From Desulfoluna sp. (GTDB lineage Bacteria; Desulfobacterota; Desulfobacteria; Desulfobacterales; Desulfolunaceae): a DNA stretch of 64,000 bases. Below, piece after piece: positions 24,188 through 47,598 of the stretch. A model generated the notes under the pieces. It was given only the letters and a program-made list of their open reading frames with translations. It was not told the DNA's origin and ran no database searches. The DNA is taken from the NCBI RefSeq assembly GCF_030145185.1, contig NZ_JAQYWB010000021.1:1-64000 (forward strand), in the 5' to 3' direction. Position 1 is the first letter of the stretch. Each line of letters begins with the position of its first letter. A program made the position numbers and the translations under genes.

Positions 24188-24375
24188 TTTGACACCCGGT
24201 CCGGAAAGGGAACCTTTTGCTGGGTCGCCGGGGGTGGAGAGGTCCTTCGAGAATGGATGGGGCACAGGCAGGGGCACCGGCGAACCGGATCCGGGTTCTG
24301 GAAAAACGACGGGAAGGAAGGTATACTCGAAAAAAACCTCACGGTGAGGCCATCATCAACCCACGGAGACACAGG

Positions 24376-25032
24376 ATGAAACAGTTTGCGGTGATCGGTA
24401 TTGGAAGCTACGGCTGGTATCTGGCCTGCCACTTGTATGAGAAGGGGCACGAGGTGCTGGCCATTGATGCGGATGCGGGCCTGATCCAGAAGATCAAGGG
24501 GCGGGTGAGCCGTGCCCTGGTCGCCGATACCACCGATCCAGACGCCATCTCCGGTCTGGCGCTGGCCGAGATGGACCGGGTGGTGGTCTGCATCGGGTCG
24601 ATTTTAAGCAACTCTATTCTGACTGTTTTAAACCTCCAGGAGCTGGGGGTCACCTCCCTCATGGCCAAGTCCATCAGTGAACCCCACGCCCGGATCCTTC
24701 ATAAGATCGGGGTGGAGGAGGTCTTTTTCCCCGAAAAGGACCGGGCGATCTCCATGGCGGAGAAACTTCATACCCCGGACATGCTGGATTACCTGCCCTT
24801 TATCGAGGGGTATGGCATCGTTCAGATGACGGTTCCCTCCACCTTTATTGGCAAGCGACTCAAGGAGCTGAACCTCATCAACCGTTTCGGGGTCCAGATC
24901 GTGGCCATCAAGGCGTTCGTTCCAGAGAAGATGCACATGATCCCCACCGCGGACTTTTGCCTTAAGGAGAGCGATATGATGGTGCTTCTGGGGCCGGACA
25001 AGAGCATTGATAAGATTCGGAAGGTCTCGTGA
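24376..25032 (+). CDS. TrkA/KtrA-type potassium channel regulatory (RCK) protein
   Basis: The 218-residue protein has an N-terminal Rossmann RCK domain with GIGSYG nucleotide-binding loop and acidic residue at the end of the second strand (VLAIDAD), then the RCK_C domain (about 135-218). The size and order match KtrA, the cytoplasmic NAD/ATP-sensing gate of KtrB-type K+ channels. No ktrB/trkH gene is in the window, so it is an orphan here. ATG 24376 is chosen for its GGAG site and the canonical MKQFAVIGIGSYG start. A sigma-54-like promoter lies upstream, which would be unusual for this family. Confidence 0.9.
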   Translation: MKQFAVIGIGSYGWYLACHLYEKGHEVLAIDADAGLIQKIKGRVSRALVADTTDPDAISGLALAEMDRVVVCIGSILSNSILTVLNLQELGVTSLMAKSISEPHARILHKIGVEEVFFPEKDRAISMAEKLHTPDMLDYLPFIEGYGIVQMTVPSTFIGKRLKELNLINRFGVQIVAIKAFVPEKMHMIPTADFCLKESDMMVLLGPDKSIDKIRKVS

Positions 25033-25058: not shown

Positions 25059-25282
25059 GGCCCGGAAGGCTGCGGATTTCCCGTCTTGTTTTATTGCTAT
25101 TTCAGGTAGATATGGTAAAATTAACCCTTGGTTTGATCGCGGGTTCTTTCTGACCGACCCCTCCCCCTGTTTTTTTCTCTGCCCTATTTATTGGGCCCCT
25201 CCCCTTTGATCTGTTGCCCTTCGATGGGATCCGCCTTTTTGGGTCGACGTTGGCCCCACCCCTTACCGTTGGGAGGTTGATC

Positions 25283-25606
25283 ATGACAGAGGTTCCCCGA
25301 GTGTCTCCGGCAGAAACGCGCGGCAAGCTGATCCAGAAAAAAGCGATGCTGGTCTGCGCCTATGCATCGGATGACCAATTCAAGCAGATGCAGCTGGATG
25401 GGGCCATCCCCCTCTCCCGCTTTGAAGCGCGCCTGCCCATGCTGCCCCGAACCCAGGAGATTATCTTTTACTGCGCCTGAGGGAAGGAGCACAGCGCCGC
25501 AGGTCTTGCGGCCAAATTGATTGAAGGGGGGTTTCCCAACGCCAAAGCCCTGAAAGGAGGGGTGGCCGGGTGGAAAGAGGCCGGGTTTTCCGTGGCCTCA
25601 CCCTGA
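25283..25606 (+). CDS. Selenocysteine-containing rhodanese-domain protein (in-frame UGA, Sec66)
   Basis: The frame from ATG 25283 (GGGAGG 6 nt upstream) meets TGA at 25478-25480, then stays open to TGA at 25604. Read through, it gives 107 residues forming one complete rhodanese domain: strand EIIFYCA, then the UGA position, GKEHSAAGLAAKLIEGGF, NAKALKGGVAGWKEAGF. In ordinary rhodaneses the residue after FYCA is the catalytic Cys, so the UGA falls exactly on the active site. A hairpin with a GGTCT loop starts 15 nt downstream. Both points argue for selenocysteine insertion rather than a pseudogene. By family it transfers sulfur (or selenium) via a persulfide/perselenide; the partner is unknown. 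Automatic callers would stop at 65 residues. Confidence 0.88.
25496..25512 (+). promoter_or_regulatory. Bacterial SECIS-like element of the rhodanese gene
   Basis: GCCGCA-GGTCT-TGCGGC forms a perfect 6-bp stem with a five-base loop, beginning 15 nt after the UGA codon. The loop and its left flank (GCAGGTCT) are identical to the E. coli fdhF SECIS apex contacted by SelB. The UGA-to-loop distance (21 nt here, 18 nt in fdhF as I recall it) is in the working range. Confidence 0.85.
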
Positions 25607-25836: not shown

Positions 25837-27219
25837 TTATCGTTCGACAAGTTTCAGGCTGCGCCAGGGGCCGCGGACGTAGCGCAGGACCGTGGCGATG
25901 CAGAGGCCGGCGATGTAGACGGTGGGGCAGCACCAGGCGAGGGTGAGGCCCCAGCCCAGGAAGAGGACCCCGACACCGGCGGGCAGGATCATGAGGAAAA
26001 GGGCGCAGGCCAGGGTGATCCACATGATGTAGCGGGTGTCTCCGGCGCCCGCCAGGGCCCCTGAGTGGATAAATCCCACGGTATCGAACAACAGATAAAC
26101 CACCACGAACCGGAGGCAGATGACTCCGGCGTCCCGGACGGGGGCAAAATCGGCGGGGGTTCCGGCGCCGGGGGCAAAGAGGTTGATCAGGGGCTCAGGG
26201 ACAAAAAGAAAGAGAGCCCCCAGGGGGAGCACGTAGGCCAGGGCGAGGTGGAGAGAGGCGCCGGTGGCAGATTCGGCCTGGGGGATCTCTCCGGCCCCTA
26301 AGTGGTTGCCCACGAGGACGCTGGCGCCGCTTGCGAAGGCGTGCAGGGGCATGAACGCCAGGGAGTTGATGGAGAGGGCGATGTTGGTGGCGGCCAGGGC
26401 GGTCTGGCCCAGGCGGCCCACAAGGAAGATAAAGAAGGTAAAGGCAAAGATATCGAGAAAGAGGTGCAGGCCGCCGGGCAGGCCGTATTGGAGAAGCTTT
26501 TTAAAGAGCTCCGGGACCGGTTCCCAGTGGGTGAGGCCGATCGAGTCGCGGTCTTCCCGGGTGATGAGGAGCCGGGCAAAGAGGACAAAGATCAGGGCAG
26601 AGGAAGCCACCGTGGCCAGGCCGGCCCCGAAGATGCCCAGCTCGGGGAAAGGGCCGATGCCGTTGATCAGGCAATAGTCCAGAGGGATGTTGACGCCCAT
26701 GCCGACGAGGTTGACGAGCATCACGGGCCGGGTGCGGCCCATGCCGGAGAAGTAGCCGGAGAGGGCGGTGCTTGCCAGGCTGAAGAAGGCGCCCAGGCAG
26801 AGGGTTCGAAAATAGATGCGTTCAAAGGCGGCGATGGTCTCCCCGTGGCCCGCCAGCTCGAAGAGGGGGGTGGCGCAGAGGGCGAAGGCGGCCATGAAGA
26901 GGGTGCCGACAAGGGCGAGCCAGAGACCTTGCCAGAGGCAGCTTCCGATGCGCTCGGTCATCTTGGCCCCCCGGTACTGGGAGATGAAGACGCTGACGTA
27001 GCCCACGGTCCCCAGAAAGAGGGAGAGGGGGAGAAAGTAGGCGATGCCCGCCGGTGTGGCAGCGGCGACTTCTGCCACCGAGTGGTTCGAAACGAAGATG
27101 CGGTCGGTGAACTCCATGACGGTGGTGGAGGCCATACCGGCCACCAGGGGCAGGCTGATGGTGAGGACGCGACGGTAATCGTCGCCGTGGGCCGATGGCC
27201 CTTTAAACCAGAGTTTCAC
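25837..27219 (-). CDS. MATE-family efflux transporter
   Basis: The 460-residue membrane protein has twelve predicted helices in two halves. Family landmarks are the helix-1 region ISLPLVAGMASTTVMEFTDR, FGAGLATVASSALIF, and the second-half QTALAATNIALSINSLAFMP. MATE pumps export cationic drugs, organic cations or metabolites using sodium or proton gradients. The substrate is not predictable. It is transcribed alone, with a class C repeat directly behind its stop codon and a class A-like remnant (27238-27317) just upstream of its start. GTTTAAAGGG precedes the coding part, without a strong ribosome site at ATG 27219. Confidence 0.92.
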   Translation of the reverse strand: MKLWFKGPSAHGDDYRRVLTISLPLVAGMASTTVMEFTDRIFVSNHSVAEVAAATPAGIAYFLPLSLFLGTVGYVSVFISQYRGAKMTERIGSCLWQGLWLALVGTLFMAAFALCATPLFELAGHGETIAAFERIYFRTLCLGAFFSLASTALSGYFSGMGRTRPVMLVNLVGMGVNIPLDYCLINGIGPFPELGIFGAGLATVASSALIFVLFARLLITREDRDSIGLTHWEPVPELFKKLLQYGLPGGLHLFLDIFAFTFFIFLVGRLGQTALAATNIALSINSLAFMPLHAFASGASVLVGNHLGAGEIPQAESATGASLHLALAYVLPLGALFLFVPEPLINLFAPGAGTPADFAPVRDAGVICLRFVVVYLLFDTVGFIHSGALAGAGDTRYIMWITLACALFLMILPAGVGVLFLGWGLTLAWCCPTVYIAGLCIATVLRYVRGPWRSLKLVER

Positions 27220-47411: not shown

Positions 47412-47497
47412 GGAGGAGTGGCCGAGTGGTCGAAGGCGGCGGTCTTGAAAACCGTTGAGCGCAAGTTCCGTGGGTTCGAATCCTACCTCCTCCGCCA
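47412..47497 (+). tRNA. tRNA-Ser (anticodon TGA)
   Basis: The acceptor stem GGAGGAG pairs with CTCCTCC, and CCA is encoded. The anticodon loop CTTGAAA reads TGA, decoding UCA. A long variable arm of class II type and the T-loop GGTTCGAATCC are present. Confidence 0.95.
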
Positions 47498-47508
47498 AAC
47501 GAAGCTCC

Positions 47509-47598
47509 GGAGAAATGGCCGAGTGGCTGAAGGCGCGCCCCTGCTAAGGGTGTATGGGTTAACGCCCATCGAGAGTTCGAATCTCTCTTTCTCCGCCA
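47509..47598 (+). tRNA. tRNA-Ser (anticodon GCT)
   Basis: The acceptor GGAGAAA pairs with TTTCTCC and CCA is encoded. The anticodon loop CTGCTAA reads GCT, decoding AGC/AGU. It has a long variable arm and T-loop AGTTCGAATCT. It lies 11 nt behind the first tRNA-Ser, so the two form one transcript. Confidence 0.95.

Follow-up and report, generated by a model that had tools for sequence, protein, structure and literature searches.

A Desulfoluna rhodanese gene with a probable Cys-x-Sec active-site loop, and relatives with predicted Sec at both positions

The window, meaning the whole 64,000-nucleotide stretch of Desulfoluna sp. DNA analysed here, contains a short gene with an in-frame TGA between the genes for a TrkA-type protein and a MATE transporter (Table 1). 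An earlier, sequence-only reading of the window had described this TGA as being followed by 41 residues that complete a rhodanese domain, and its coordinates are exact on re-reading. That reading had also expected standard gene callers to give a cut-off reading frame; a standard ORF caller indeed stopped at the TGA and produced a 65-residue product. The window gene shows none of the frameshifts that would be a sign of a pseudogene. The read-through protein matches the Pfam Rhodanese family (PF00581) over residues 32-100, a span that includes the TGA, with an E-value of 6e-8 and a score of 33.4 bits, which passes the gathering threshold of 22.2. The AlphaFold2 model of the read-through protein, for which five sequences were the input, has a pLDDT of 87.2 and a pTM of 0.82. 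The model adopts a plain rhodanese fold that superimposes on E. coli GlpE with a Z score of 16.3 and an rmsd of 2.0 over 103 residues, and Foldseek places YgaP among its nearest structures. The window protein is probably a cytosolic, single-domain rhodanese. Clustering of the gene neighbourhoods at 68 loci reveals no neighbour in common except among near relatives, and the largest clusters consist of the gene itself and of frames that overlap it; the neighbourhood thus gives no hint of a pathway. No terminator-like site was found adjoining the seleno-rhodanese gene, and the sole promoter-like site, at 25094-25121, scores no better than expected by chance.

Table 1 Features of the seleno-rhodanese locus in the window
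Feature	Position	Strand	Description
TrkA-type protein	24373-25032	+	Flanks the seleno-rhodanese gene
Likely ribosome-binding site GGGAGG	25271-25276	+	From sequence; ATG 6 nt downstream
Selenoprotein gene	25283-25606	+	ATG 25283, Sec66, 107 residues, rhodanese domain, stop TGA 25604-25606
Cys25 codon (LVCAY)	25355-25357	+	Invariant in a 19-row family alignment; corresponds to Asp of DVR in related rhodaneses
Cys64 codon TGC	25472-25474	+	Counterpart of YgaP catalytic Cys63 in the alignment; replaced by TGA (Sec) in 23/70 family members
In-frame TGA read as Sec66	25478-25480	+	TGA in 70/70 family members
SECIS hairpin GCCGCA-GGTCT-TGCGGC	25496-25512	+	Loop starts 21 nt past the TGA
MATE transporter	25837-27219	-	Flanks the seleno-rhodanese gene on the other side

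The family was sought in 389 genomes of the order and in 395 from across the phylum Desulfobacterota, which gave 70 members in Desulfobacterota, the window gene included. Codon 66 is TGA in every one of them; TAA, TAG and Cys codons are absent from this position, so that the other stop codons which the earlier reading had named as a sign against selenocysteine do not occur there in the relatives. The terminal stops of the family, read in 69 members, are mixed (TAA 30, TGA 25, TAG 14), and therefore a neutral stop at codon 66 would not remain TGA. The TGA is kept in four relatives of the same genus at 55-75% identity, and the closest named relative found is in Desulfoluna limicola (75% identical). 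The pN/pS ratio 3' of the TGA ranges from 0.13 to 0.63 in comparisons with seven relatives and is mostly about 1 past the terminal stop; purifying selection evidently acts on the part of the gene downstream of the TGA. A gene broken by a nonsense mutation, or a real 65-residue truncated product, would fit the behaviour of the ORF caller, which stops at the TGA. However, the TGA at codon 66 throughout the family, together with purifying selection and stem covariation downstream of it, makes either of these highly improbable. Gene copies that are frameshifted or broken occur in draft genomes (L120 and L082), owing to sequencing error or decay. Whereas a Cys form at residue 66 occurs in none of the 70 members, the sister family includes CxC forms (L084 and L124). 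In L084 (forward strand, codon 66 at 445-447), TGT stands in place of TGA and a hairpin, GTGCC-GGTCT-GGCAC, is retained. With a hairpin of the SECIS type still present beside the TGT, L084 has the look of a gene in which Sec gave way to Cys only recently, leaving the hairpin as a relict.

The genes for Sec insertion that the earlier reading proposed to look for, selA, selB, selC and selD, are all present in the source genome. The scores of selA (597 bits), selB (350 bits) and selD (363 bits) lie above the curated cut-offs, and a selC tRNA with the anticodon TCA passes its curated cut-off as well. Among the genomes that carry the seleno-rhodanese, selA is found in 53 of 54, the exception being 82% complete, and also in 26 of 26 non-carriers tested; the selA comparison of these 54 and 26 genomes fails to tell carriers from non-carriers. 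The selD gene of the source genome (L016, contig C53, 19118-20044, reverse strand) has one in-frame TGA of its own, and SelD is for this reason probably a selenoprotein here. Two adjacent tRNA-Ser genes with the anticodons TGA and GCT lie on the forward strand of the window at 47412-47598. The one with the anticodon TGA matches the tRNA-Sec model below the cut-off and is not selC.

Downstream of the in-frame TGA, the hairpin is found just as first described, with a 6-bp stem, a GGTCT loop and a start 15 nt past the TGA. Its apex had been called identical to that of E. coli fdhF, and GCAGGTCT is common to both. A 41-nt stretch with GCAGGTCTGC, which we take to be E. coli fdhF, has matches in 5368 of 5426 E. 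coli genomes; in both records listed, the underlying feature is annotated as fdhF. Rfam searches at gathering and relaxed thresholds give no SECIS match. This miss is not counted against a SECIS element because many bacterial SECIS elements share no common sequence. The bSECIS model describes a loop of 3-9 nt with G in the first two loop positions, a stem of 4-16 bp, a distance of 16-37 nt from the UGA and a minimum free energy of at most -7.5 (PMC13188914). The window hairpin has a 5-nt loop (GGUCU), a 6-bp stem, a distance of 21 nt and an energy of -10.5 kcal/mol and thus falls within this model, and 61 of the 65 members scanned pass a simplified bSECIS test. The folding energy of the hairpin shows no excess over shuffled sequences (z 0.41). 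The window has 2077 TGA triplets, of which 90 are accompanied by a comparable GG-loop hairpin, and 13 of these 90 also have an open frame on either side. A scan for a TGA and a GG loop alone is therefore powerless, and the hairpin taken alone is weak evidence.

Taken across 45 members, the hairpin becomes strong evidence: 91.9% of the stem cells are paired, compared with 75.4% in shuffles. The covariation score of the stem in the same members is 0.406 against 0.131 for the shuffles, and none of 500 shuffles reaches it; when the partner is shifted by 1 to 3 columns, most of the covariation signal is lost. Columns 21 and 33, which fall on the third codon positions of residues 72 and 76, pair as G-C in 20 members, C-G in 14, U-A in 9 and A-U in 1, and pairing is lost in a single member. 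Stem covariation of the same kind is seen in the sister family (NF041203 side). Chance does not explain the conserved TGA, the stem covariation or the synonymous excess downstream. The view of the locus as a true selenoprotein gene with a bacterial SECIS element is borne out in that TGA conservation, Sec machinery and stem covariation agree, and it is almost certain that SelB would act on this hairpin to insert Sec at the TGA.

The position of Sec within the active site differs from that first proposed. The TGA had been placed exactly at the catalytic Cys of rhodaneses, but the HMMER alignment to YgaP puts Cys64 there instead. In this alignment, IIFYCAUGKEHS is paired with IIFHCQAGKRTS of YgaP, with Cys63 on Cys64 and Ala65 on Sec66. 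Cys63 is the catalytic Cys of YgaP and is replaced by Asp in entry 5hbq (C63D). The homologues have Cys or Sec after the Tyr of the strand and then Sec66 two residues on. Because of the YgaP alignment, these homologues and the CxC forms of the sister family, the centre is read as Cys-x-Sec and not as a Cys-to-Sec swap. Very probably, Cys64 in the active-site loop occupies the place of the classical rhodanese nucleophile, and Sec66 follows it after one intervening residue. By the YgaP alignment, the window protein is not a classical rhodanese with Sec replacing the catalytic Cys. The sister family keeps the Asp of DVR where Cys25 sits in the window family. In the model, residue 25 closes the strand 21-25 and residue 64 lies just past the strand 59-63, and the rhodanese fold suggests that Cys25, Cys64 and Sec66 would be spatially close. 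The loop is without the Arg of YgaP (GKEHS versus GKRTS). This makes a classical thiosulfate sulfurtransferase less likely, although reduction is not proven thereby.

In 23 of the 70 members a second TGA stands at codon 64, which would give a U-x-U centre. These members comprise one FYUGU clade and the single forms FYUAU (L048), FYUSU (L109) and LYUAU (L116); in the sister family, U-x-U occurs as LYUAU (L089) and FYUTU (L091). The state of residue 64, Cys or Sec, has changed at least six times on the tree of both families together, and such repeated changes suggest a joint function of residues 64 and 66. In the U-x-U members, the first TGA is 27 nt from the loop, within the range of 16-37 nt, and we infer that one hairpin serves both UGA codons. 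The full-text literature covered, mostly papers free of subscription, yielded neither a U-x-U rhodanese nor a paper on a Desulfoluna selenoprotein. We lean slightly towards the view that this is a seemingly undescribed family, outside every NCBIfam model, in which Sec66 is fixed, the catalytic Cys has repeatedly and independently become Sec, and one SECIS element would decode two UGA codons. If true, a diselenide centre of the U-x-U type arises from one SECIS element and two UGA codons one codon apart. The U-x-U members provide a compact natural test, with one SECIS element and two UGA codons six bases apart.

The earlier reading had suggested persulfide or perselenide chemistry, which is possible for the window protein. 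In the proposed cycle, a persulfide or polysulfide would donate sulfane sulfur to Cys64, and Sec66 would then attack the sulfane sulfur on Cys64 so that sulfide is released. A selenenylsulfide would form between Cys64 and Sec66, to be reopened by thioredoxin or a similar reductant, with Cys25 possibly as a third, helping thiol. In the U-x-U relatives, the equivalent step would go through a diselenide. The computations establish the gene, its conservation, the stem covariation, the fold and the C-x-U alignment; Sec insertion and the chemistry are inferred. This cycle is the most likely working mode, to which we assign roughly an even chance, and the whole chain from the gene through Sec insertion and the C-x-U centre to persulfide reduction is likewise about equally balanced between right and wrong.

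Sec66 might instead be the nucleophile that carries sulfur or selenium, for example to feed SelD or sulfur transfer, with Cys64 merely resolving. Residue 66 is always Sec in the family and residue 64 alternates between Cys and Sec, as would suit such a carrier, and selenium delivery mediated by rhodaneses is discussed in the literature. However, the alignment gives Cys64, not Sec66, as the rhodanese nucleophile, no conserved selenium gene adjoins, and all 26 selA-bearing non-carrier genomes tested manage without a seleno-rhodanese, so that a carrier role for Sec66 seems rather unlikely. It is less probable still, and distinctly doubtful, that Cys25, Cys64 and Sec66 form a binding site for a metal or metalloid, with the protein serving in sensing or detoxification and not as a sulfur enzyme: the fold is that of an ordinary rhodanese and no metal-related neighbour is conserved, against three conserved thiol or selenol residues, with Cys25 specific to the family, and a metal-binding double selenoprotein on record (PMC13188914). 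Returning to the Cys64-Sec66 cycle, the repeated exchange of Cys and Sec at residue 64, next to an unchanging Sec66, suggests a real demand of anaerobes for selenium chemistry on sulfane sulfur.

Among NCBIfam models, none scores above its cut-off for the members tested. Against NF041203 (rhodanese_LYCAU), the nearest named family, the window protein reaches 55.8 bits, below the cut-off of 115, and the scores of the other members tested lie between 42 and 69 bits. In a tree of 89 sequences, the window family and the LYCAU family lie on opposite sides of one branch with a support of 100/99, and several genomes have members of both families with scores far apart. The window family is apparently an unnamed seleno-rhodanese branch of sulfate reducers. 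Because standard gene calling truncates these genes and there is no NCBIfam model for them, many sulfate reducers probably have the family annotated wrongly. A second rhodanese gene with an in-frame TGA is present in the source genome (L125, contig C66, TGA near contig base 77077). Its product has a hydrophobic N-terminus resembling a signal peptide, followed by TPIITYCASSTUWKSYHAARLAVKNGY, and a hairpin, CCGCC-AGGTT-GGCGG, lies 3' of the TGA; L125 is probably a further selenoprotein, of the C-x4-U type.

The earlier reading was right that Sec-containing rhodaneses have already been reported: a 2026 review gives five forms, of which form 3, CxU with one Sec, is the NF041203 type (PMC13188914). 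The LYCAU family shares with the window family the rhodanese domain, the place of C-x-U, the place of the SECIS element and the kind of covariation. It differs in having [VIL]DVR where the window family has LVC[A/I]Y. In several LYCAU members the N-terminal stretch resembles, by eye, a signal peptide, whereas the window family begins just before the domain. The YgaP rhodanese domain and GlpE of E. coli share the fold and, by the YgaP alignment, the active-site strand IIF-[YH]-C, but they have neither Sec nor a thiol or selenol two places past the catalytic Cys, and YgaP retains the Asp in LIDIR. The TsoB rhodanese/DsbD fusion-like proteins (NF045694; form 5, UxxxxU) resemble the U-x-U members in having a rhodanese domain and two Sec residues. 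In contrast, their model is a fusion of 572 positions with another Sec spacing, and the window protein matches it weakly (E-value 0.07). Forms 1, 2 and 4 (UxxS, UxxG) also have a rhodanese domain with one Sec but differ in motif, and it is by the listed motif only that they are set apart here (PMC13188914). The window protein is of a known kind, within which its branch, marked by Cys25 and a recurrent U-x-U state, seems to represent a new variant.
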